A stretch of 63,807 nucleotides of DNA, from positions 1 through 63,807 of IMG/VR virus record IMGVR_UViG_3300050138_000202; one strand, written 5' to 3'. Each line of letters begins with the position of its first letter. Position 1 is the stretch's first letter. This DNA is from a virus. Shown here in pieces: positions 42,447 to 63,807 of this stretch. The notes under the pieces are model-generated. The model was not told the origin of the DNA. It made no database searches and saw only the letters and a program-made list of their open reading frames with translations. The position numbers and the translations under genes are program-made.

Positions 42447-42606
42447 TTTTATCCTTCACTTTCTTTAATTGTAGTTTTAGTTTCCAGTTTTGTTTTTCTA
42501 ATTCTTCTATAAGTTCTTGTTTTTGCGTTACGGTTTCGCGCAGATTAGATTCGTCAAGCTCCTCTTGTTTGCAGCGAGCACAGGAGTTGTTATTACAGCA
42601 CGCCAC
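42424..42606 (-). CDS. Small Cys-rich coiled-coil protein
   Basis: 60 residues: MACCNNNSCARCK at the N-terminus (possible metal site), then one coiled-coil helix. Overlaps the Thg1 gene end by 14 nt. Confidence 0.5.
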   Translation of the reverse strand: MACCNNNSCARCKQEELDESNLRETVTQKQELIEELEKQNWKLKLQLKKVKDKNGSPSTK

Positions 42607-43381
42607 GATCTTCTCCTAGTGTCGGCGTTCGTGTTCCTAAAAAAGCTCTGTCTTGCGAAAATATTGGCGGCTCAGCAGATATCCAACGATTTCTCTTGGT
42701 CATCCCGCTATTGCCGGTCTCTGGATTATATGCGGGAGCGTCGTACTGCTCTCTGATAATGACGCGTCCACGCTTGAATCCAACCGGATAGTCGTTCCAG
42801 TTCTGGCCCTTCTGCCACATCAACTCCTGCAGCTGCGAAGTATCCTTGCCGTCCAACTCTTTTTGCTTATAGAGCTTCTGCGCACCCATCTGAATGCTAT
42901 TGCGAGTCGCGTCCTGCTGTCTCCACAGGAAGTAGTTGAACACTTCATTGCGGTCAGGAATGGTCCATACTCGCGAATCAAAGTACGCGATCTTATCCAT
43001 GTTAGCCAAGATCTCTTCGTCAAGGTACATGCCATTGTTAAAGTGCGCTGTCGCAATCGAGGCACTCACAGAAACGATTTTCTGAATGTTGCCCTTAAAC
43101 CAAGCGTCTGTGTGTATGTTGTCGAAGTCAGTCATCAAGATGCTGATCTCATCAGACTGCACGTAGGCGTACCTAACGTGCTGCAGGCGCTCACAAAGGG
43201 CGATTGCAGTCTGATCCATGATGCGCATAAGACGCAGGTCATACGGACGCGCGAAGCCTTTGGTATATGTGTGGAAGGCCTTACCGTCCAATCGAATCAC
43301 GGTATAGGTGCGCGGAGGTAGACTGGTGCGAGTTATGTTCTCGTACCGCTTCATTCGTTCGCCAAGTTCGTCATTTTTCAT
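42593..43381 (-). CDS. tRNA(His) guanylyltransferase / Thg1-like protein
   Basis: 262 residues, close to the full Thg1 core: MKRYE..TRTSLPPRTYTVIRLDGKAFHTYT with the first metal Asp, YAYVQSDEISILMTDF with the second, then KIVSVSASIATAHFN, FDSRVWTIP, NYFLWRQQDATRNSI and NWNDYPVGFKRGR. Thg1 enzymes add nucleotides in the 3'-5' direction to tRNA 5' ends, either G-1 of tRNAHis or template-dependent repair in Thg1-like proteins. Part of the long minus-strand operon. Its target may include the odd tRNA-like elements at 2567-3067. Confidence 0.9.
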   Translation of the reverse strand: MKNDELGERMKRYENITRTSLPPRTYTVIRLDGKAFHTYTKGFARPYDLRLMRIMDQTAIALCERLQHVRYAYVQSDEISILMTDFDNIHTDAWFKGNIQKIVSVSASIATAHFNNGMYLDEEILANMDKIAYFDSRVWTIPDRNEVFNYFLWRQQDATRNSIQMGAQKLYKQKELDGKDTSQLQELMWQKGQNWNDYPVGFKRGRVIIREQYDAPAYNPETGNSGMTKRNRWISAEPPIFSQDRAFLGTRTPTLGEDRGVL

Positions 43382-53179: not shown

Positions 53180-53338
53180 TTATGCCCAATAGCAGCAAGC
53201 TTGCGCTATTAGGCCCAGCATCGAAAGACCTAACAAAATGCGCTTAGTATTTGTGTCGCGCATCAAAGGGATTATTACAAAGCAATTCAATGCGCTCACG
53301 AATGCAAGCGCATCACCAAGTAAAACTTTATCCACCAT
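53180..53338 (-). CDS. Small two-span membrane protein
   Basis: 52 residues from ATG 53338, overlapping the end of the PhaR-like gene. Two hydrophobic stretches (ALAFVSALNCFVIIPL, ILLGLSMLGLIAQACCYW). Unknown. Confidence 0.5.
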   Translation of the reverse strand: MVDKVLLGDALAFVSALNCFVIIPLMRDTNTKRILLGLSMLGLIAQACCYWA

Positions 53339-53648
53339 GGCCAGCTTGCGGACCTTGAAGCATTGCCGCCACATACTTGGCTAATCCACCGGCTTTAATA
53401 ATGCCACGCAACGTCTCTGTCTGGCTAGACAGATCGGTCTCTGTCTCAACCATTGCTTGCATGAATGTTTGGCCCGTGATATCGCTCTTGTCGCGATTGT
53501 CGATTACGCGCACATCGCGTCCAGCAGTCACGAAGCCAACCAAGTCACGAAGAGTCACGTAGCATGACTCTTCGGTGTCGTACAGCTTGCGATTCTGGTA
53601 GCGCTTCACGATCTTCGTTCCATTAGCACTAACTTGAGTCGTGTCCAT
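53328..53648 (-). CDS. PhaR-type DNA-binding-domain protein
   Basis: 106 residues from ATG 53648 behind CTTGGAGGATAA. KRYQNRKLYDTEESCYVTLRD, FVTAGRDVRVID and DITGQTFMQAMVE match the N-terminal DNA-binding domain of PHA/PHB accumulation regulators (PhaR). No PHA-binding C-terminus is present. It could repress phage promoters or interfere with host polymer storage control. Confidence 0.7.
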   Translation of the reverse strand: MDTTQVSANGTKIVKRYQNRKLYDTEESCYVTLRDLVGFVTAGRDVRVIDNRDKSDITGQTFMQAMVETETDLSSQTETLRGIIKAGGLAKYVAAMLQGPQAGHGG

Positions 53649-54818: not shown

Positions 54819-55345
54819 GATGCCTCATCTTTCTCTTTATCGAACGGACGCACAGCAGGACAGCATTTGCAATGAAATTCTGTGGTGCGAAACAAATCGA
54901 CACGTTTCCAATCGTGCGCGATACACAGAGAGCCGTGCGCATTCCGTCCAGTGTCGATTGCCAAGCTAAGCTTATCGCGATCAACTCCAGAGAACATCGC
55001 ACCGCTCTGCTCATGCAATAAATTTACCTGATTGCCGTCTCCATTGAATGATACAATTTTATAAACGTGTGTATTGTTGCCGGTGCTCTTAACAATGTCG
55101 CCAGCCTTAAGAGTATTGGCGCGAGTACCAACGGGAAAGAAGTTTTTATGCCAAGACGTGGGCGGTAGTGCGGTGCCTGGTGTGCGTACCATGATGAGAC
55201 CAGTCGTGGAGTTATTGTCCTGTGGATAGACACATAGCTCGCCTAAATTGCTCTCAATTAAAGTGTATGGATGATTCAAAATGAAACCAATGCTTGCAGC
55301 GGTTGCGTCCTGGACAGCGTAAATTAAAATGTCCCCAGCCTTCAT
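54815..55345 (-). CDS. Hypothetical beta-rich protein
   Basis: 176 residues from ATG 55345 behind GAGGAGGCTTAA. Starts KAGDILIYAVQD, an SH3-like or KOW-like beta opening repeated later (LKAGDIVKSTGNNTHVYKIV), with FHCKCCPAV near the end as a possible metal site. Unknown. Confidence 0.5.
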   Translation of the reverse strand: MKAGDILIYAVQDATAASIGFILNHPYTLIESNLGELCVYPQDNNSTTGLIMVRTPGTALPPTSWHKNFFPVGTRANTLKAGDIVKSTGNNTHVYKIVSFNGDGNQVNLLHEQSGAMFSGVDRDKLSLAIDTGRNAHGSLCIAHDWKRVDLFRTTEFHCKCCPAVRPFDKEKDEAS

Positions 55346-55346
55346 T

Positions 55347-55598
55347 TTAAGCCTCCTCGTCGTATATCTTTGAGTCACCTGGCTCATAGTTTCCGCGCGC
55401 ATGTCTCAAGTCTGCAATACTCTTGCCACCCTGAATGCAATGCAAATAGGTGCCAGTTTTAGTTCTGTAGTGCGTCACATCAGTTGGTTCAAATTGAGCC
55501 ACTGGGGGTACCTGAAGGTATGCGTACACGAGTGTCGATACCGTACCAATTAGAGAAAATAACATCACGCACAAAATCACTTGATTATCGTAGTCCAC
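55347..55598 (-). CDS. Single-span membrane protein
   Basis: 83 residues from GTG 55598 behind GGGAGAACAC; an upstream ATG at 55658 is possible. Membrane segment VILCVMLFSLIGTVSTLVYAYL then a periplasmic tail. Its start overlaps the end of the small lipoprotein gene, an arrangement seen for spanin pairs, though the order is reversed here. Confidence 0.45.
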   Translation of the reverse strand: MDYDNQVILCVMLFSLIGTVSTLVYAYLQVPPVAQFEPTDVTHYRTKTGTYLHCIQGGKSIADLRHARGNYEPGDSKIYDEEA

Positions 55599-55755
55599 CG
55601 TGTTCTCCCGTGTGAAAAATTGCGCTGCAATATCCTGGTGACGCTCCGTAATGTGCATAACAATCAGGATCTTGCGTATCCTCACTGTTGTAAGGATCAT
55701 TACTAATACTAGCACACCCAGTCAAAAATACAACGCATAAGATCAATAATCTCAT
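55585..55755 (-). CDS. Small lipoprotein (56 aa)
   Basis: 56 residues from ATG 55755, which overlaps the stop of the zinc-ribbon gene (TAATG). RLLILCVVFLTGCAS is a signal sequence with lipobox LTGC; the mature 43 residues are acidic, with three Cys. It could be a superinfection-exclusion lipoprotein or an o-spanin-like protein. Confidence 0.55.
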   Translation of the reverse strand: MRLLILCVVFLTGCASISNDPYNSEDTQDPDCYAHYGASPGYCSAIFHTGEHGGLR

Positions 55756-56063
55756 TACGATACCTTCTTTAATTTGGTTTTACCTGTCCCATATACGAAC
55801 GTATTGTTTATGGACTCTTTGCCCATTGGCACTTCGACAAAATAGGTTAAGCCATTCTCAAATTGAACCAATGCATCTTTGCCCTTGACCACAGCCATCT
55901 CACTCTCGAATTCGATTGTGAGAACGTATCTGTGCGTCTTGACTTTCTCGTCCCACTGGTGGGAGCAATCATGGCACGTTACTTGCAATAGGCCATTTTG
56001 AGACGGGCCTTCGTTTGCAACATTCGTGCTACCGCATTCTGGGCACTTATCCTTTTTCGCCAC
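55755..56063 (-). CDS. Zinc-ribbon protein
   Basis: 102 residues from GTG 56063. KCPECGSTNVANEG and VTCHDCSHQW form a TFIIS-type zinc ribbon; the rest is a beta domain (RYVLTIEFESEMAVVKG). Probably binds nucleic acid or a polymerase. Overlaps both neighbours. Confidence 0.6.
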   Translation of the reverse strand: MAKKDKCPECGSTNVANEGPSQNGLLQVTCHDCSHQWDEKVKTHRYVLTIEFESEMAVVKGKDALVQFENGLTYFVEVPMGKESINNTFVYGTGKTKLKKVS

Positions 56064-56256
56064 GGCATTGCTCCAGTTCTTGCATGTTGGCCAGCATCTC
56101 ATTCGCCTCATCCATATCAGACTGTTCGTTATTGATCCAACGATTCAGTTTCTCAATATCCAAGCGCAACTCTTCGATTTGCATGGACCACCCATCAATG
56201 CGCTTGGCACACTTCTTGATTTTGTTCTGCACTAAGTCGTATGCCGCGTCACTCAT
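56047..56256 (-). CDS. Small coiled-coil protein
   Basis: 69 residues, one long charged helix (MQIEELRLDIEKLNRWINN). ATGA overlap with the upstream gene. Unknown. Confidence 0.5.
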   Translation of the reverse strand: MSDAAYDLVQNKIKKCAKRIDGWSMQIEELRLDIEKLNRWINNEQSDMDEANEMLANMQELEQCRGEKG

Positions 56257-56408
56257 TTGGGCACCGCAATGATTTTCTTAATATGATCCGACACATGCTC
56301 ATACTTGGTCCATGCTGACGTTAGCGCCTCAGCGCGCGAATTCACATGCACTTCGTATGCCACTGGCTGAGCATCGTAATAAATCACTACAACCACAAAT
56401 GTTTTCAC
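56253..56408 (-). CDS. Small protein (51 aa)
   Basis: 51 residues from GTG 56408, ending in the ATGA start of the next gene. KTFVVVVIYYDAQPVAYEVHV is a beta hairpin, followed by a helix (EALTSAWTKYEHVSDHIKK). Coupling on both sides supports it as real. Confidence 0.55.
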   Translation of the reverse strand: MKTFVVVVIYYDAQPVAYEVHVNSRAEALTSAWTKYEHVSDHIKKIIAVPK

Positions 56409-56411
56409 AAC

Positions 56412-56552
56412 TCACCACCAACCAAAGATGCGGCCAAAGATGGGCAAATAGATTAATGAACTGACCACCAGCGCAAATCGGTCTTTGCCTTCGTCTGCTG
56501 CGGCCACGAGTATCACATTGAGAACTGACAGGATAACGCAATAGGTAATCAT
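56412..56552 (-). CDS. Small membrane protein (46 aa)
   Basis: 46 residues from ATG 56552, overlapping the stop of the zinc-finger gene upstream. Two hydrophobic stretches (CVILSVLNVILVAAA, ALVVSSLIYLPIFG). Fills an otherwise empty gap in the operon. Confidence 0.5.
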   Translation of the reverse strand: MITYCVILSVLNVILVAAADEGKDRFALVVSSLIYLPIFGRIFGWW

Positions 56553-57169
56553 TAGCTTGCTCCCCAGCCAGCAACAAGTGTGCCAACTTTTCCGTGTTTC
56601 TTCAAACCCTTTTCACGCTCTGATTTAACTTGAGCATCACGCGCCTTTTCCGCCAATTTGATTTTCGCATTTAGTTTCGCAATCTTGCGCTGCAAACCCA
56701 GTGGGCGGAAATCACCCTCGCCGCATACTGGGCATTTGGTGCTACCTTGGCGCAAATTCTGCGTAGCGACCTTAGAGTGACAGCCTTCGCACGTTGCAAA
56801 CTTCGGCAACTTAACAGGAGCGCGGACCAAGGTTAGCATTTGCGTATTCAGCGCCGTAAGTTTGGCCGATAACTTTTCAACCTTGGCACTGTATTTGAAT
56901 GCGGTTTTATCCAAGAATTTGTAGCGCACAGCTACCACGAAGTCCCATTTCTGGGCAGTCTTCATGCAATATTCATGCGCAGCGTTGTAATCATCGAACA
57001 TCAAATTGGTATGATCTTTGACATCATGAACAGTTTGAAAATCGCCTGAATAGCCTTCTTGGTGCCCGTTATAGTCGCGATTTTCTTTGCGTAAATCGTT
57101 AAACTTCTCTTTGATTGCATGGAACGAAGGTGCTCCAGCCATCTCGAATTCGATATTGTGCGCGCCCAT
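56552..57169 (-). CDS. Zinc-ribbon and coiled-coil protein
   Basis: 205 residues, RBS AAAGGGGTAA. N-terminal alpha/beta region (NLMFDDYNAAHEYCMKTAQK), a coiled coil, a treble-clef or ribbon CEGCHSKV..KCPVCGEGDF, and a second basic coil. Probably nucleic-acid-binding. No family recognised. Confidence 0.55.
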   Translation of the reverse strand: MGAHNIEFEMAGAPSFHAIKEKFNDLRKENRDYNGHQEGYSGDFQTVHDVKDHTNLMFDDYNAAHEYCMKTAQKWDFVVAVRYKFLDKTAFKYSAKVEKLSAKLTALNTQMLTLVRAPVKLPKFATCEGCHSKVATQNLRQGSTKCPVCGEGDFRPLGLQRKIAKLNAKIKLAEKARDAQVKSEREKGLKKHGKVGTLVAGWGAS

Positions 57170-57189
57170 AAATTACCCCTTTGTTTCGT

Positions 57190-57540
57190 TTAGTTGCTTA
57201 AAACCAATGTTCCGTTACTAATTGTGTAATTGTCCGTAACTGGTCCCAGATGTCCAGTACATGAATTGTACGTGCTGGTAAAAGTAACGGTTCCACTATT
57301 AGCGCCAGGATTGTGGTCTACCCACGTTCCCGCCTCAACGCAAGTCGTCGGCGATGTTTGACTAAGGGTGAATGTTCCTGAGCCATCAATCTGAGCAACA
57401 GCACCAACGAAGTCCCAAGTATTGATAAGCAGCGATTTGGGAGCAGGACTTGAATCATTAGAGCCGCCGCTAGAGCCACAGGCGGTCAATCCAAAACCAA
57501 TCAAAGACAAAATCATTAGACGTTTCGTATTATTTAGCAT
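57190..57540 (-). CDS. Lipoprotein, lipocalin-like
   Basis: 116 residues, RBS AAGGGGA. Signal sequence LMILSLIGFGLTAC (lipobox LTAC), Ser/Gly linker, then a small beta-barrel-like domain (NTWDFVGAVAQIDGSGTFTLS, GTVTFTSTYNSCTG). Its leader contains a pseudoknot-like fold and a sigma54-like site. Possibly a superinfection-exclusion protein. Confidence 0.6.
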   Translation of the reverse strand: MLNNTKRLMILSLIGFGLTACGSSGGSNDSSPAPKSLLINTWDFVGAVAQIDGSGTFTLSQTSPTTCVEAGTWVDHNPGANSGTVTFTSTYNSCTGHLGPVTDNYTISNGTLVLSN

Positions 57541-57552
57541 ATAATCCCCTTA

Positions 57553-57602
57553 TTCCCCGCGTTTAGAAAGGGCGCAGTCCAGCGGGGGAACCAGACTGCG
57601 CC
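57553..57602 (-). promoter_or_regulatory. Predicted H-type pseudoknot in the lipoprotein leader
   Basis: On the minus strand a 9-bp hairpin GGCGCAGTC/GACTGCGCC (57602-57594 with 57579-57571) encloses a loop containing TTCCCCCGC. This loop can pair with GCGGGGAA at 57560-57553, ten bases beyond the stem. The downstream strand lies next to the ribosome binding site AAGGGGA. This is the layout of small riboswitches or translational control pseudoknots; ligand unknown. Confidence 0.5.
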
Positions 57603-57661
57603 ACAAATTGTCTGTTCTGTTGTTGATTCGCTTGCAGCGACCGACAGACACAAATAGGTAA

Positions 57662-57677
57662 TGCACGCGATGTGCCA
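57662..57677 (-). promoter_or_regulatory. Sigma54-like -24/-12 element upstream of the lipoprotein gene
   Basis: On the minus strand TGGCACATCGCGTGCA, with GG-N10-GC spacing. The start would be near 57651, giving a leader of about 110 nt that includes the predicted pseudoknot. It is the leftmost clear member of the family dense from 58.86 kb on. Confidence 0.45.
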
Positions 57678-57710
57678 ATCATAACTAATTGAATTCATTG
57701 TGGTATCGTA

Positions 57711-57728
57711 ATGAGAAGCTGTCGAACT
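57711..57728. repeat. 18-bp direct repeat, first copy
   Basis: ATGAGAAGCTGTCGAACT, in the gap between the lipoprotein gene (minus) and the endonuclease VII-like gene (plus). Identical to 62982-62999, 5.3 kb away. Confidence 0.55.
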
Positions 57729-57797
57729 TATGAGCATTTTTATTGCGATAAACCAAATTTACAGCTATCACAATAACTTACCTATCTGAATAACTTG

Positions 57798-57827
57798 TTG
57801 ACATTTTTCATATGTTCGACGTATGAT
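57798..57827 (+). promoter_or_regulatory. Sigma70-type promoter for the endonuclease VII-like gene
   Basis: Perfect TTGACA and TATGAT (one mismatch) 18 bp apart. The predicted start falls at or next to the ATG at 57834, so the message may be leaderless; no ribosome binding site is seen. Confidence 0.6.
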
Positions 57828-57833
57828 AGTGAG

Positions 57834-58376
57834 ATGAAACGCTGCTATGTGTGCGAAGCGACTAAGCCACTCATTGAATTCTATAAAAACGTCTCAACAA
57901 AAGACGGTTTGCAATCCATGTGCAAAATATGTACCAAACGCACTCAACGTGCTACTCACATACTAGATCCATCGCGGCGCTCAGAAGGCAATAAAAAGCG
58001 CTATTATAAAAACCACGAATTAAGCAAACAGAGAGCCCGCAAGAAACATGCCAAGTTTCGTTCAGACAAACCAAATGAATTCGCAACGTATCAAGCTAAG
58101 CAAAAGCTTGCTGGATATGGTTTATCGCTAGAAGAATACGATAAAATGCTATTAGATCAAGGACATAAGTGCAAGCTATGTCCTATCATGCATATTAAAT
58201 CTAAAAGCCTATGCGTAGACCACAATCACGCGACTGGTTTGGTACGCGGTTTGCTGTGTAGATCATGCAACTCAATGCTTGGCCTTGCAAAAGATAGTCC
58301 AATCACATTGGCTAATGGTATCGCATACCTAGAAAACGATTCTCTAAAAAACACTTTTGTAAAAAAACAGTTTTAG
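57834..58376 (+). CDS. Endonuclease VII-like HNH nuclease
   Basis: 180 residues from ATG 57834. N-terminal CYVCEATKP..CKICTKR zinc pair, basic linker, then YGLSLEEYDKMLLDQGHKCKLC, LCVDHNHATGLVRGLLC and CNSMLGLAKDSP, the recombination endonuclease VII (T4 gp49-like) core. Could resolve branched DNA for packaging or be a homing enzyme of that family; the extra N-terminal zinc domain and its own promoter in the opposite orientation favour a mobile origin. Confidence 0.8.
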   Translation: MKRCYVCEATKPLIEFYKNVSTKDGLQSMCKICTKRTQRATHILDPSRRSEGNKKRYYKNHELSKQRARKKHAKFRSDKPNEFATYQAKQKLAGYGLSLEEYDKMLLDQGHKCKLCPIMHIKSKSLCVDHNHATGLVRGLLCRSCNSMLGLAKDSPITLANGIAYLENDSLKNTFVKKQF

Positions 58377-58435
58377 GACTACCCTATTAACCACTCCCCA
58401 TCGAACCCACTGGGTACCCCCTGCAAGTTTTATGC

Positions 58436-58762
58436 CTATTTGATTTCGTGTCTGAATTCTACTTCGTCGCACCATTCGTGCATTGCTTTAACGGGCTTGC
58501 CTACGAGCCTATAGACCATAGCGTCGTATAGCATGCGTAGCTCGCGCAGTGCCTTAAAATACTCGCTAGCGTCGTCACTGGTGAATATTAAGCGCTGCTG
58601 TAACCTATTATCGACATACAACTTCATGTCGTCAATACCACGCTTATCATTCCAGAATAGCGGAGATACGCAACCGATGTTTATCCACTTGTTTTCTTTG
58701 GTGTATATGCGAACTGTTGCGCCAGCTTGGTACATCTCTTTTTCAACGACAATCATAGGCAC
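58436..58762 (-). CDS. Hypothetical protein
   Basis: 108 residues, RBS GAGGTGCCT. Beta-rich start (QAGATVRIYTKENKWINIG) and a helical end (EYFKALRELRMLYDAMVYRL). First gene left of the motif-rich region. Unknown. Confidence 0.55.
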   Translation of the reverse strand: MPMIVVEKEMYQAGATVRIYTKENKWINIGCVSPLFWNDKRGIDDMKLYVDNRLQQRLIFTSDDASEYFKALRELRMLYDAMVYRLVGKPVKAMHEWCDEVEFRHEIK

Positions 58763-58862
58763 CTCAACTCAATCATGCCAAAAATCCCCAATTCTGCAAG
58801 AAATCTCTAAATGATACGCCTCAAAATCGAACGTCTCAGAATGAGACAATCCCAAAATGAGA

Positions 58863-59004
58863 TGGCATGAATATTGCATAGTCTCAATTTGAGAATCCCA
58901 ATATGAGACGTGGCCTGGAAATTGCAGAGTGCAATCCGCGTGCCAATCCCAAATTGAGACTGGCACCGATCTTGCATGCGCCTATATGTGGCACCGATCT
59001 TGCT
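58863..59004 (+). promoter_or_regulatory. Cluster of sigma54-like elements (four plus, one minus)
   Basis: Plus-strand TGG..GC[A/T] elements at 58863-58878, 58911-58926, 58961-58976 and 58989-59004, each GG-N10-GC; the last two share GGCACCGATCTTGC and are 28 bp apart. A minus-strand element, TGGCACGCGGATTGCA, lies at 58930-58945. TGGCAC..TTGC is the sigma54 -24/-12 consensus. No plus-strand gene follows, so any product would be a non-coding RNA. Confidence 0.55.
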
Positions 59005-59155
59005 TTGAGCGATTATGAGAATCTTTAATGATATCATATAGTTCCGAGCGCCTCTTATAACGCGTTTAAAACGATCAGTCTCTAATTGGTGCGTCTCAAA
59101 ATAGTCACATCCAATTTGCGAAATTAATGTGGCATGGCCTTTTGAATTCCTATTG

Positions 59156-59505
59156 ACCGCGCCACGCGACGCGCGCAAAATTTAGTGCCGACGATACGCG
59201 GCCACTCGAAGGCCAAATCCGGCCCAACGCCCCAAAATGAGACGCGTTATTCGCCCCGCCATTGCATTTTGCCGATCAGGTCCATGCATCGGGACCCGTT
59301 CAAATTCTCGTCGCGCCACGCGCGCCACGCGCGCTCAAGATGCCACGCCACGCGCCACAATTGATGCGCCACGCGGTGTCGCCACGCCACGCGATCTTTG
59401 CCCAGCCTCGCGGTCACGCGCCGCGCGAAATCCAGCCACGCGCCGCGCTGCGCGGTTTAAAGGCCTATTCACGCGCTGAACAATAGGGCCACGCGCCGCG
59501 CGTGG
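59156..59505. repeat. GCCACGCG short-repeat array
   Basis: About ten copies of GCCACGC(G), often overlapping GCGCGC, in 350 bp that is far more GC-rich than its surroundings. Frames through it give only Arg/Ala-rich low-complexity peptides. Further copies are at 63217 and 63453. Candidates are an origin, a partition-type site or a recombination hot spot. Confidence 0.5.
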
Positions 59506-59512
59506 CAGTCTA

Positions 59513-59616
59513 TGCAAAATCAGGGCCAACACAAAATCCAATGCAAGTTCTATGCCAAGTCTAAAAACGTATGCAAATCCCATGCCAAGCCTCCAGTTTA
59601 TGCAATTTTCGTGCCA
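59513..59616 (-). promoter_or_regulatory. Four tandem sigma54-like elements at 29-30 bp spacing
   Basis: Minus-strand elements at 59513-59528, 59542-59557, 59572-59587 and 59601-59616, all GG-N10-GC and all in the same orientation, repeat at 29, 30 and 29 bp, close to three helical turns. The last overlaps the end of the gene at 59598. Such phasing suggests cooperative protein binding as much as promoter function. Confidence 0.55.
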
Positions 59617-59765
59617 ACTAAAGAAATTGTCGTATAATAATGCGCCTTAAAATGATACGAGTCTTCAGCCTGCAATCGCTGTGCCACAACTCTATATTTC
59701 TCATTTTGAAACGTGATCTCTTGTCCCACACTGAGACGCCGCTTGCACCAAATATTGCGACTCAT
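59598..59765 (-). CDS. Small protein (55 aa) of the motif-rich region
   Basis: 55 residues from ATG 59765 behind GGAGGT. Beta-rich (GQEITFQNEKYRVVAQRL). FQNE is encoded by a copy of the palindrome, and the start codon also lies in one. A sigma54-like element (59779-59794) is just upstream. Unknown function. Confidence 0.6.
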   Translation of the reverse strand: MSRNIWCKRRLSVGQEITFQNEKYRVVAQRLQAEDSYHFKAHYYTTISLVGTKIA

Positions 59766-59786
59766 TTTGATACCTCCATGCAAAAG

Positions 59787-60014
59787 TTATGCCAACACTG
59801 CCTGTTTTTCGATTGACAGGTCTGTCTCATATTCATCCGTATAATAATCGAGCAGTTCAGAGTGTTTCGCTTTGAAACGTACCATTTTGACACCTTCATC
59901 GGCATATTCTTTTATGAGACGTTTCAAACCAATGCGTGCCAATTCGAGACTGGAATAGACCTCCAGCCAATCGCTCGATCCTGAGACATGTCTCAAAATG
60001 AATACGTGTTTCAT
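59787..60014 (-). CDS. Small protein of the motif-rich region
   Basis: 75 residues, RBS AAAGGATATC. Alpha/beta (KHVFILRHVSGSSDWLEVYS, LARIGLKRLIKEYADEG), acidic end. Start codon in a palindrome copy. It resembles the 42-residue neighbour at 60050-60178 in its first strand. Unknown. Confidence 0.65.
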   Translation of the reverse strand: MKHVFILRHVSGSSDWLEVYSSLELARIGLKRLIKEYADEGVKMVRFKAKHSELLDYYTDEYETDLSIEKQAVLA

Positions 60015-60049
60015 ATTGATATCCTTTCGTTATGCAAGAGTTATGCCAA

Positions 60050-60178
60050 TCAATGTACCATTTCGAGACGCAATTCAAACTCAATACCATCGCGCCTCAA
60101 AATGAGACATACCGCCCAGACCTCGGCCTCTGTCTCGTAATCGAACGTCTTACCTTGATACACCACAATGTGTCTCAT
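60050..60178 (-). CDS. Small protein (42 aa) of the motif-rich region
   Basis: 42 residues from ATG 60178 behind AAAGGGG: MRHIVVYQGKTFDYETEAEV.. ending RLEMVH. The palindrome covers the ATG and recurs inside (CLILRRDG). A sigma54-like element sits 19 nt upstream of the ATG. Its small size makes it easy to miss, but start signals are as good as its neighbours. Confidence 0.55.
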   Translation of the reverse strand: MRHIVVYQGKTFDYETEAEVWAVCLILRRDGIEFELRLEMVH

Positions 60179-60204
60179 ATTGAAACCCCTTTGTTATGCA
60201 ATAT

Positions 60205-60876
60205 CTATGCCACTTTGTCCCATTTGGTATTCTCAAAATTCTTCGTCCCATGGTAGCACAGTCCCACTTTGAGACACGAACCCAGCGCGGCGACCATATC
60301 GTCGTCTGTCCCATTTTGATACCCTGCCGCCTCTAATTGATCCATTGTCTCAAAAACGCGCGCATGGAAATCTGTCTCAATTTGAATCAGTTTGTCTTGT
60401 TTGCCACCAAATGAGAATATGGCACGGAAATTGCTAGGCAATCGCGCTTTCTCATTTTGAAACATCTGGACCTGTTTCGTGTACGCATAGAACGAGACAC
60501 GTTTGTCCGCCTCAAAATGAGACATGATCTTAACCCATCGGTTTAGATATTCCATGGAGTAAAAGTCGCCCGCGTCATGAATTCTCACAACGAGACGTTT
60601 GGTTGATCTCTTATTGAGCCACTTTTCAATGTCTGCAATCATCATGCCAACGAATGTATCATTTTGAGTCAGTGCCAGTTTGGCTTCGTGGGCGCGCTTT
60701 ACATTCCCAAATTGATACGCGCCTTGCCGCGCATAACATCCCACAGCGCACAATCCCGCATTGGGACACGTTTTAATCCCACTTTGAGACATAAACGCTG
60801 GGATGGTCCAATTCACGTTGGTAATCCCATTTTGAGACGATTTCTTCATCTTGCTATTCTGCGTTAAAAGATCCAC
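60205..60876 (-). CDS. GP88-family phage protein
   Basis: 224 residues from GTG 60876 behind AAAGGGGG. LLTQNSKMKKS, GIKTCPNAGLCAVGCYARQGAYQF, VKRAHEAKLALTQ and VVRIHDAGDFYSMEYLNRWV match the gene product 88 family found in mycobacteriophages and others, function unknown; three Cys in CPNAGLCAVGC suggest a metal site. Six or more palindrome copies are written into it (SQNG, MSQSG, TQND, FQNE), altering residues outside the conserved core. A sigma54-like element lies upstream at 60905-60920. Confidence 0.8.
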   Translation of the reverse strand: MDLLTQNSKMKKSSQNGITNVNWTIPAFMSQSGIKTCPNAGLCAVGCYARQGAYQFGNVKRAHEAKLALTQNDTFVGMMIADIEKWLNKRSTKRLVVRIHDAGDFYSMEYLNRWVKIMSHFEADKRVSFYAYTKQVQMFQNEKARLPSNFRAIFSFGGKQDKLIQIETDFHARVFETMDQLEAAGYQNGTDDDMVAALGSCLKVGLCYHGTKNFENTKWDKVA

Positions 60877-60921
60877 ACAATCCCCCTTTGATACGTTTAA
60901 ATTTGAGATCCAATGCAATTC

Positions 60922-61380
60922 TTATGCCACAACTCGCGTGTCTCGAATTGAGTCAGGTATCCGTACCTTTTTGAGACCGACCAAAGACCTTGCAAGAGTC
61001 AGGCCATCGGCCCAATCTGATGCGTCTCCATCTGAGGCGATATCAATTGCATCGCCCAAATAGTGTTTCAAAATGAGAAGACATGCCACCACGACCGTAT
61101 CATAAGGATACTGTCTCGTTTTGCAAAAATTGAATGCCTCATTTTGAGACATGTGCTCCCTAAACGACATGGGCTCACACGAACCGACTCGTTCTGAGCC
61201 ATTCACATTGAGACCACCATATGTCTTAGAATGAGCCGTGTATCCAGATAGACCACCATGTGTCTCAGAATAGTCACGTATCAATTTGGCACATTTTACA
61301 ATCGCGGTCTGATATTTCTTCTCATTTTGAGACGTTTGGCCGCGTTGGCCCTTAAAAGTCCAGTAGTGTGTATAACCCAT
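60922..61380 (-). CDS. MGYTHYW-type phage protein
   Basis: 152 residues, RBS AAAGGGGG. The opening MGYTHYWTFKG and the segment YDTVVVACLLILKHYLGDAI identify a common phage protein family of unknown function. Palindrome copies encode TSQNEKK and MSQNEAF. The upstream spacer has a GAGACAC-N6-GTGTCTC hairpin (61394-61413) and no sigma54-like element. Confidence 0.75.
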   Translation of the reverse strand: MGYTHYWTFKGQRGQTSQNEKKYQTAIVKCAKLIRDYSETHGGLSGYTAHSKTYGGLNVNGSERVGSCEPMSFREHMSQNEAFNFCKTRQYPYDTVVVACLLILKHYLGDAIDIASDGDASDWADGLTLARSLVGLKKVRIPDSIRDTRVVA

Positions 61381-61601
61381 AAAATCCCCCTTTGAGACAC
61401 GTTATTGTGTCTCTATTTAATACTAACACGATACGTCAAAAAAACACAATAGCGATTCTCAATTTGGGACAAATGCCCTGAATATATCCATTATGAGACA
61501 GTACCAAAGAAAGACAACGAATATCTTTTGTCCCATTAGGAGACATTTCCACGAAACAGCTTGACTTCTCATTTTGGTACGCCTAATCCTATTTCGTCCC
61601 A

Positions 61602-61997
61602 TTATGCACCACGCTTGAACTGTCTCGTATTGAGACCAAATACCTTCGCCGAGCCATTTTGAGCCACCATATATGCCGCCTCAGATTGAAACACTGGTGT
61701 ATCAAACTGTTTCAGCACGAATGTCTCATAAAGATACGGGTTATATGTAACAATTTCACACGCATCAATCTGAGACTGATCGTGCGCCACATCTAATGCA
61801 ATTAGTGTGCCAACGACGCCAGCGTGTACGTTTTTGCGACGTTCCAATAAGACACGCTCCCTGCCTCGTTTTGAGACTTTATAGTCGCAGTCTCGTAATG
61901 AGACGAAGTTGGCATGCGCTATAACGCGTCCCGTTTTGAGACATTTAACGCTCCATACCTTCTTATGCAGGTTAAAGTAGACGAACACGCGTCCCAT
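61602..61997 (-). CDS. Hypothetical protein of the motif-rich region
   Basis: 131 residues from ATG 61997, which overlaps the stop of the gene upstream (TAATG) and lies in a palindrome copy. Beta-rich start (GRVFVYFNLHKKVWSVKCLK), later VAQNGSAKVFGL. Unknown. Confidence 0.6.
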   Translation of the reverse strand: MGRVFVYFNLHKKVWSVKCLKTGRVIAHANFVSLRDCDYKVSKRGRERVLLERRKNVHAGVVGTLIALDVAHDQSQIDACEIVTYNPYLYETFVLKQFDTPVFQSEAAYMVAQNGSAKVFGLNTRQFKRGA

Positions 61998-62161
61998 TAT
62001 GAGACCAATCGTTTCATTATAAGCCAAGTCGCGCGCAATGCCTCAAAATGAGATGGTTGGGCAGGCTGAGGAATTGTCGCATTTTGAGACTCTTTACCAC
62101 TCAAGCCACCTTGGATCAAAATGAGATAGTTTCCCGTTTTGGTACGTTTAGCGTTGACCAT
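61997..62161 (-). CDS. Small protein (54 aa)
   Basis: 54 residues from ATG 62161 behind AAGGGGGG. VNAKRTKTGNYLILIQGGLSG, then KESQNATIP, another palindrome-encoded SQN. Translationally coupled to the next gene. Unknown. Confidence 0.55.
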   Translation of the reverse strand: MVNAKRTKTGNYLILIQGGLSGKESQNATIPQPAQPSHFEALRATWLIMKRLVS

Positions 62162-62200
62162 AAAATCCCCCCTTGAAAATGTTTCAATCTGAAACACTAG

Positions 62201-62226
62201 CCAGCGCCCCAAAAATGAGACGCTGG
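62201..62226. promoter_or_regulatory. Spacer hairpin built around a palindrome copy
   Basis: CCAGCG-N14-CGCTGG between the genes at 62239 and 61997-62161; the loop contains most of a GTCTCA-N3-TGAGAC copy. A similar hairpin, GACCGTC-N9-GACGGTC, is at 62598-62620 in the next spacer. No T-run, so not simple terminators. Confidence 0.45.
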
Positions 62227-62238
62227 TATTGTCCCAAA

Positions 62239-62538
62239 TTAAGCCGCTACCGACTCTTTGCGTTCCACATTGAGACGCTTCGCGGTAGACACGTTAATTA
62301 GTCCCAATTCGTTACACTTAACGAATCCCACTTTGAGAAGAAGTGTCTCAGCATCGCACACACGGTTTGTCTCATATTGAGTCGTGGTGACGCTGAATTG
62401 GGCTGTCTCAAAATTACCCCCAGCCGCCTCAATACGAGACTTGATGGCTGCGCGTTCTTTTTCGAGACGCTTCATTTCTTGTCCCAAAGCGATAAACTGT
62501 GCCAAATCGGCGTCAGTAGGTTTGATAGCTTTTCCCAT
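62239..62538 (-). CDS. Small coiled-coil protein
   Basis: 99 residues from ATG 62538 behind AGGAGTATCAAA. Coiled coil (QEMKRLEKERAAIKSRIEAA) then a beta/alpha end (FSVTTTQYETNRVCDAETLL). Start codon inside a palindrome variant. Unknown. Confidence 0.6.
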   Translation of the reverse strand: MGKAIKPTDADLAQFIALGQEMKRLEKERAAIKSRIEAAGGNFETAQFSVTTTQYETNRVCDAETLLLKVGFVKCNELGLINVSTAKRLNVERKESVAA

Positions 62539-62640
62539 TTTGATACTCCTGTGCCTCATTTTGAGGCAGTTTAGTGGACCATTTTGGCACACCACAAGAC
62601 CGTCCCACCATGAGACGGTCCTAGCTGTGTCAATTTAAGA

Positions 62641-62883
62641 CTATTTAGTGAAAACCCCAAAGTGTCTCACTTTGGTACGACGTACCGTTTTGATAATGTA
62701 TTGATCTAAGACAATGGACCATCTGGCTTGAATTGAGACAAGCTCACCAATCTCAAAACGAGACAGGTCCTGATAAGTCTGCAATTCGTGGCCATTGACC
62801 TCTATAGTGCCGCCTAAATCGGCTAAGCGATGTTTCGTTTTGATACGCCCTTTGGCGCTGTGGGTTTTATCTGGATTTATCAT
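62641..62883 (-). CDS. Small basic protein
   Basis: 80 residues, RBS TAGGGGG. Contains GGTIEVNGHELQTYQDLSRFEIGE and a basic C-terminus (TVRRTKVRHFG). It is the first gene of the minus-strand run as read from the right and might be the regulator, but no helix-turn-helix is evident. Confidence 0.55.
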   Translation of the reverse strand: MINPDKTHSAKGRIKTKHRLADLGGTIEVNGHELQTYQDLSRFEIGELVSIQARWSIVLDQYIIKTVRRTKVRHFGVFTK

Positions 62884-62981
62884 TATGAGACCCCCTAAAG
62901 ATCCTGTCTTAATTAACAGGACACAATAGACTAATGCATGGAATAGGCCAAAGAATCCTCAATGATTTCAATAGCCTCAGT

Positions 62982-62999
62982 ATGAGAAGCTGTCGAACT
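62982..62999. repeat. 18-bp direct repeat, second copy
   Basis: ATGAGAAGCTGTCGAACT is identical to 57711-57728. A shorter copy, TGTCGAACTA, recurs at 63651-63660. Both long copies lie in non-coding gaps beside sigma54-like elements. Confidence 0.55.
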
Positions 63000-63136
63000 A
63001 GTATACGTCTCATCACTGTGAGACATGCTAACCCTGCGAAACAGTTCTGAAAAAACGATTTTGTATAACTATTAGTCGATGCACTGGGCGTAGACACCTG
63101 GATGTACCATTATGAGGCTATGCAATCTTTACCATT

Positions 63137-63213
63137 GAATAGAGGTCTATTCCCCTAAGTCTTAACAGACCGGCATGAATAGACCGCGCCACGGGCCTTA
63201 TAACACGTTATAA
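63137..63213. promoter_or_regulatory. Two perfect palindromes, operator candidates
   Basis: GAATAGA-GG-TCTATTC at 63137-63152, with a half site GAATAGACC at 63177-63185, and TTATAAC-AC-GTTATAA at 63198-63213. A relative of the second, TTATAACGCGTTTAA, is at 59055-59069. They differ from the main palindrome and suggest at least two more DNA-binding proteins. Confidence 0.5.
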
Positions 63214-63807
63214 CATGCCACGCGCGCCTAAGTCCTAAGCTTAGTCAATTTAATAGGGCTAGACAAAATAGATCAGGACCATGACTCATTATGGGACAGT
63301 CGAAGAGTTTGTCTACCTGCAAAGGCTGTGCCAAGTCTCGTTATGAGAATAGCATGGTGACGGGATGCAATAGGTGCGCCAGTCTCAATTTAATACGGGA
63401 TAGGTGGGTTTTCCCCGCCTCACTTATGGTCTGTCCCACCTTGATACACCTGGCCACGCGCTGGGTTTTTGTGTTTCAAATTGAGATAATCTCTTATTGA
63501 GAATCCCTGAATGAGACTGAGTTGGCATGGCACGATAAATGCACCGCAATAAACGTCACAGCCTCACATTGAGACTAAGTTGGCATGGTCCAGAAATTGC
63601 ATAGCGTAGAGTGGCATGTCTCATATAGGGATGGCACGCTTTTTGAGGTCTGTCGAACTAACAGTGACTGAGTTTGAGACGCTATTCCCTATACACCTTA
63701 GTTCTCGCTATAAGCGCCGTGGTAAGGTGTGTGTCTAAAGTTTCGTCGCACCATAATGAGCCGCTATCTCGTTGTATTCAATAGGGAATGTCAATTTTAA
63801 GGCCCTT

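Follow-up and report, generated by a model that had tools for sequence, protein, structure and literature searches.

A palindrome array at one end of a phage contig

The stretch of DNA analyzed here, which we call the window, is the complete IMG/VR virus record IMGVR_UViG_3300050138_000202, a phage contig of 63,807 bases that is probably a fragment because end repeats are absent. Its last 5 kb hold a leftward operon of small genes, including members of the L5 gp82 and gp88 families, and this operon is filled, across genes and spacers, with copies of a 15-bp palindrome, GTCTCA-N3-TGAGAC (as an oligonucleotide, GTCTCANNNTGAGAC). Judged by its genes, the operon looks typical of phage right arms and not of virion gene clusters; we call it early on gene content only. 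The features of the region are collected in Table 1.

Allowing up to three mismatches, we obtained 116 matches in the window where 23 are expected, and none of 100 dinucleotide shuffles reached 116. About 90 of the matches lie in the last 5 kb. Between 58.8 and 63.7 kb, 1, 15, 40 and 35 sites carry 0, 1, 2 and 3 mismatches, respectively, compared with 0, 1, 4 and 20 in the remaining 58.8 kb. After removal of overlaps the array comprises 91 sites at up to three mismatches and 56 at up to two. With training restricted to four other phages, a position weight matrix (score ≥ 8) recovered 97 array sites versus 0.9 in shuffled sequence, and in the rest of the contig 21 sites versus 9.8, an approximately twofold excess. 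An earlier note, made by reading the letters of this DNA, had reported more than fifty copies far above chance between 58,833 and 63,620. The array is real and holds more copies than that, and its extent has to be widened to about 58,803–63,680, preceded by a sparse tail that starts near 55 kb. The two checks fixed beforehand gave clear answers, as the density is local and not genome-wide and the shuffles stay far below the array.

Spacing within the array is random or slightly clustered, with a mean gap of 54–57 bp; the even spread described earlier does not hold, and no 10–11 bp phase and neither helical nor even spacing was found. One gap stands out at about 59,244–59,643. The non-coding stretch at 59,130–59,510 contains many CCACGCG/CGCGTGG words and almost no palindrome.

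Both half-sites of the palindrome are conserved. The consensus reaches slightly beyond the 15 bp, with depletion of G at position -8 and of C at +8, and A/T predominates among the three centre bases, so that the 12-bp specification first given is right about the palindrome and slightly short. On the plus strand the left half-site is more degenerate than the right, partly because on the coding strand TGA is changed to CGA or TGG where it would be an in-frame stop. A nucleotide search with the array in annotated phages gave no match, and a literature search for the palindrome site yielded nothing relevant.

Table 1 Features of the array region in the window.
Feature	Position	Strand	Remark
GTCTCA-N3-TGAGAC array	58803..63680	.	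91 non-overlapping copies at ≤3 mismatches (56 at ≤2)
Sparse tail of further sites preceding the dense array	55186..58800	.	from about 55 kb
Perfect copy	58833..58847	.	GTCTCAGAATGAGAC
Array gap	59244..59643	.	above CCACGCG-rich non-coding stretch
Site over start codon of ORF 59598-59765	59759..59773	-	
Site over start codon of ORF 59787-60014	60008..60022	-	
Site over start codon of ORF 60050-60178	60172..60186	-	aaaggggTTTCAATATGAGAC
Site over Shine-Dalgarno-to-start region of ORF 62239-62538	62532..62546	-	aggagTATCAAAATGGGAAAA
Site over start codon of ORF 62641-62883	62877..62891	-	read from sequence
GP88-family gene (PF17338)	60205..60876	-	12 sites; 0 in array-free homologues
MGYTHYW-family gene	60922..61380	-	11 sites, many sharing an alignment column across 3-5 phages
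L5 gp82-family gene (PF25735)	61602..62027	-	
Small array gene	62239..62538	-	no assigned function
Small array gene	62641..62883	-	common to contig G004
Sigma-54-like elements, TGGCAYR-N4-TTGCA	58850..63650	both	interspersed, about 24 in the array at ≤2 mismatches
PhaR-type DNA-binding domain protein (PF07879)	53328..53648	-	rival candidate binder

Related phages carry this array in a matching gene cluster

Relatives were reached through the GP88-family protein (G001, G002 and G003), the MGYTHYW protein (G004 and G006) and the pattern of a ribosome-binding site plus palindrome (G005, and G006 again). The same palindrome fills G001 (118 kb), G004 (176 kb), G005 (78 kb) and G006 (58 kb), where we counted 48–75 sites at up to two mismatches versus 1–7 for the reversed control. 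Each of these contigs has one array, and it lies in the same gene cluster as in the window. Capsid identity between the window and G004 is 90%, while G001, G005 and G006 form another group at about 30%. Weaker site clusters occur in G003 and G007; G005, G006, G003, G007 and a further contig, G024, are fragments. Myxococcus phage Mx1, related more distantly (52% to the window), lacks the array, and so does G002, whose GP88 protein shares 64% identity with the window's. At the end of the G002 contig (L006, 10,880–11,283) a long near-perfect repeat of GGCGACGCTCGGGTATAC-like units runs to the contig end in an apparently open frame. Array-free contigs encoding HTH_8 (see below) or MGYTHYW proteins were scanned for other palindrome arrays and showed nothing comparable, the stronger leftover signals resembling coding repeats. 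A search for the host through prophages, using the capsid, returned two distant matches only.

One dense cluster per contig with very many sites is also what a partition, packaging or replication element might look like, that is, a parS-like or iteron-like field serving segregation or an origin and not gene control; some spread-out centromere systems have very many sites. We regard this as very unlikely, given that some 90 sites run over 5 kb within one operon, overlap start codons and follow no regular or helical spacing, and that no ParA/ParB or initiator appeared among the families listed (first 25 per library) for the 146 G001 proteins.

The palindrome is selected as a DNA word

Sites inside genes occupy all three reading frames, and TGA, where it would fall in frame, is replaced, mostly by CGA or TGG. 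At up to two mismatches the array genes of the window, G001, G004, G005 and G006 contain 30, 38, 32, 41 and 26 sites. Shuffling synonymous codons in these five arrays left 4–6 sites versus the 26–41 observed, an about sevenfold excess; the frame and codon tests were run on simple gene calls of our own. Three homologous gene families have 6–13 sites per gene in the array phages and none in every array-free homologue examined, and in the three family alignments site columns are shared 15, 49 and 11 times versus 2.2, 4.9 and 2.6 expected. Peptides dictated by the palindrome, such as SQNE, are absent from the array-free homologues. The use of three frames, the excess over codon shuffles and the conserved columns together indicate that the DNA word itself is selected. 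At least four related phages preserve the palindromes, even at the expense of the encoded protein sequences.

Two other origins were rejected. The use of all three frames rules out a protein repeat, and a mobile, MITE-like repeat is ruled out by flanks that share nothing beyond ±8 except a ribosome-binding-site signal.

Palindromes of this kind could in principle work in RNA, as small hairpins controlling translation or mRNA stability, since each can form a 6-bp stem and many overlap start codons (those of 11 of the 15 called array genes in G001, including one doubtful gene, and of about five genes in the window). The pattern of substitution makes this highly improbable. Changes affecting both halves of a site are no more frequent at partner than at non-partner positions, except at position 3/13, where A-A, not a base pair, is the most frequent double change; there is thus no Watson-Crick compensation. 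A-C mismatches are seen at position 6/10. The coding strand does show more T-G than C-A at positions 4/12, a point in favor of RNA pairing, but this excess is at least partly due to TGA becoming TGG in the frame where TGA is a stop. Many good sites, moreover, fall in non-coding DNA. The lack of compensation argues against hairpins and, together with selection on the DNA word, suggests that the array is a field of double-stranded sites for a dimeric protein.

A phage HTH_8 protein is the leading candidate binder

Reading through the proteins of G001, we found one of Fis/NtrC type, confirmed by a match to HTH_8 (PF02954). Matches to PF02954 exceed the cut-off in G001 (3.1e-12) and G004 (4.4e-11), the two long array contigs, and HTH_8 was not found in the complete Mx1 genome, nor in G002, G014 or G016. 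Searching IMG/VR from the HTH_8 side returned 10 loci, including G001, G004 and G024. The G024 protein, found through its similarity to those of G001 and G004, is encoded on a contig that shares synteny with G004 as far as the array (35 matching G004 proteins) and has five sites in its last 550 bases; the HTH_8 gene lies about 7 kb from that contig end, and in G004 about 8 kb from the array.

The HTH_8 proteins have 66–98 amino acids, with AAA+ and receiver domains absent. Aligned over its length, that of G001 matches Fis (E 4e-4), and it also aligns with an NtrC-family domain. The helical part of its predicted model superimposes on the NtrC1 domain with 0.6 Å over 44 residues (Foldseek E 8.7e-3) and on Fis with 0.7 Å over 43 residues (E about 8e-2), E-values that are weak for so short a domain; by this superposition the protein has the three-helix DNA-binding fold of Fis and NtrC. 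The site geometry points the same way. The NtrC site, TGCACCAnnnTGGTGCA, has the same frame as the array site (PMC8743547), and the site of lambda NinH is a 15-bp palindrome of the form G-N13-C (PMC7166090). Geometry and co-occurrence are thus suggestive of HTH_8 proteins binding GTCTCA-N3-TGAGAC.

On this basis our best explanation, in which we place somewhat less than even confidence, is that the array constitutes about 90 sites for a homodimeric helix-turn-helix protein, likeliest a small phage HTH_8 protein without AAA+ domain, which would coat and control the operon. Several observations weigh against it. The window encodes no HTH_8 protein, although it ends just upstream of its array and the gene would then lie beyond the contig; G005 and G006 also lack one, neither contig covering the region. 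HTH_8 proteins occur without this array in G018 (135 kb) and G025 (116 kb), so the gene is not sufficient and the association is suggestive only. The gene stands apart from the array, by about 20 kb in G001 and about 8 kb in G004, and its own promoter carries no cluster of sites; confidence in the predicted model is low outside residues 50–90. A tyrosine recombinase is present in the group of G001, G005 and G006 but was not found in G004, and a lytic phage would need a use for coating other than lysogeny.

Other candidate binders appear less likely

The earlier note saw no obvious regulator gene in the window. A PhaR-type gene (PF07879; Table 1) is present, yet it matches the site poorly and the better candidate lies in the relatives. 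PhaR-type proteins are encoded in the window, G001 and G004 (also G008), and in G004 the gene overlaps an rIIB-like gene downstream of the array by four bases. PhaR is known to bind palindromes that have a 3-bp centre and conserved GC pairs, CTGCNNNGCAG (PMC12542648). The array site lacks those GC pairs, its consensus having no CTGC/GCAG halves, and the NRKLY core is conserved in the phage proteins. Eight further phage contigs encode a PhaR-type protein but lack an array of this kind. We therefore consider PhaR an improbable binder. The Pfam scan of the 146 G001 proteins returned, besides the PhaR-type domain, an Rrf2 regulator, which adjoins the array in G001 and G005; it was rejected as the common binder since G004, at 176 kb, has no Rrf2.

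The sites could instead be bound by a host protein, for instance Fis or an NtrC-family enhancer-binding protein, that the phage recruits or soaks up as a decoy. Sigma-54-like elements are scattered through the arrays of the window and G004 in numbers far exceeding the reversed-pattern control, which gave 2 matches in the whole window contig. Sigma-54 activators of the NtrC family bind palindromes of like geometry, the four contigs tested (the window, G001, G002 and G003) encode no PF00158 activator domain, and no good binder gene is present in the window itself. However, the palindrome is also kept in the arrays of G001, G005 and G006, where sigma-54-like elements are few and sigma-28-like elements take their place, and the phages are too diverged, at 30% capsid identity, to assume a common host. 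A decoy, furthermore, needs no placement at start codons or at fixed positions within conserved genes. A host binder appears unlikely to us, if less so than PhaR.

The promoter-like elements themselves differ between the groups. The window and G004 (48–72 kb) have dozens of sigma-54-like -24/-12 elements. Some stand in tandem, every 29–30 bp (59,528–59,616 in the window), and several of those in the window leave too little room before the start codon for a normal sigma-54 leader; many of those in G004 lie 40–55 bp upstream. Sigma-28 (FliA)-like elements, TAAAGTTT-N11-GCCGATAA, occur immediately upstream of array genes in G001 (L005, 8,980–14,770), G005 and G006, and also in G003 (L017, 8,110–9,300). 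Promoter usage in this gene cluster thus seems to differ between phage groups, being sigma-54-like in one and sigma-28-like in another. No Sigma54_DBD or Sigma70_r4 gene scored above cut-off.

A putative coated operon and its nearest analogues

Returning to the HTH_8 protein, dimers would bind across the promoters, start codons and gene bodies of the operon and coat it, lowering or timing its transcription. Sites occur about once per 55 bp over start codons, promoter-like elements and gene bodies alike, and dimers on even part of them would hinder initiation and elongation, which is why we favor coating and repression. The coat would act as a repressor of initiation and a roadblock to elongation, lifted or imposed at some stage of infection, and may serve lysogeny or the timing of the lytic cycle. 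A DNA-binding protein sitting everywhere in the region, be it repressor, roadblock or nucleoid-like protein, had been proposed from the outset; it is the best-supported reading in view of the double-stranded type of the sites, their selection within genes, their conservation and the associated Fis/NtrC-type protein, though the support is partial, binding itself being inferred. More speculatively, and with lower confidence, a phage-encoded, sequence-specific nucleoid protein of Fis/NtrC type and a dedicated field of about 100 sites through the coding sequence of one operon could form a site-programmed silenced chromatin domain that reshapes codons and amino acids.

Stoperators of mycobacteriophages had been named as the nearest analogue. 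Those of the cluster A phages L5 and Bxb1 are 13–14 bp long, without dyad symmetry, bound by a monomer, and number 20–30 per genome, distributed genome-wide (PMC6550527). The likeness lies in many copies of one short site within and between phage genes, stoperators blocking elongation, and in the L5 gp82- and gp88-family genes of the operon. In contrast, the array consists of about 90 palindromes of 15 bp in one 5-kb operon, whereas stoperators are asymmetric, dispersed and mostly in one orientation, a property that is undefined for a palindrome. Being symmetric, three to four times more numerous and confined to one operon, the sites are not stoperators, and the analogy holds for a possible mode of action: the array may work like L5 stoperators in outline, by blocking elongation. 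No L5 Rep-type immunity repressor was recognized among the families listed, the window being a fragment.

Three other systems share the fold. Lambda NinH, a phage mimic of Fis, is likewise a small phage protein with a Fis-type helix-turn-helix and a 15-bp palindrome with end G and C; its specificity is degenerate, and in the part of the source consulted no site array is reported (PMC7166090). The likeness is one of fold and site geometry. NtrC-family enhancer-binding proteins provide, with NtrC1, the closest solved DNA-binding domain, and their site frame is TG-N3-CA-N3-TG-N3-CA (PMC8743547). Unlike them, the phage proteins lack AAA+ and receiver domains, so that no PF00158 domain stands beside the DNA-binding domain as in sigma-54 activators, and NtrC has only a few sites, placed upstream of promoters. 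E. coli Fis has the same fold and a G-N13-C palindrome with an AT-rich centre, and it coats DNA, but it is far more degenerate and acts chromosome-wide, while the phage model has no ordered N-terminal part.

If the proposed coating is correct, the array would be, to our knowledge, the densest example of sites for a regulatory protein written through the coding sequence of an operon, under a constraint strong enough to fix peptide motifs such as SQNE and TQSE in the proteins. With a candidate binder and its site, it would offer a natural system for studying silencing by sequence-specific coating of bacterial and phage DNA. It would also bear on how polymerase traffic tolerates roadblocks and on how binding specificity can remain unchanged in phages whose capsids have diverged to 30% identity.

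Other genes of the window

Far from the array, the window encodes on the minus strand an adenylosuccinate synthetase family protein (73–1,338); such enzymes (PurZ) in some phages make 2-aminoadenine DNA. A phage tRNA-His guanylyltransferase (Thg1) family protein is encoded at 42,593–43,381, also on the minus strand.

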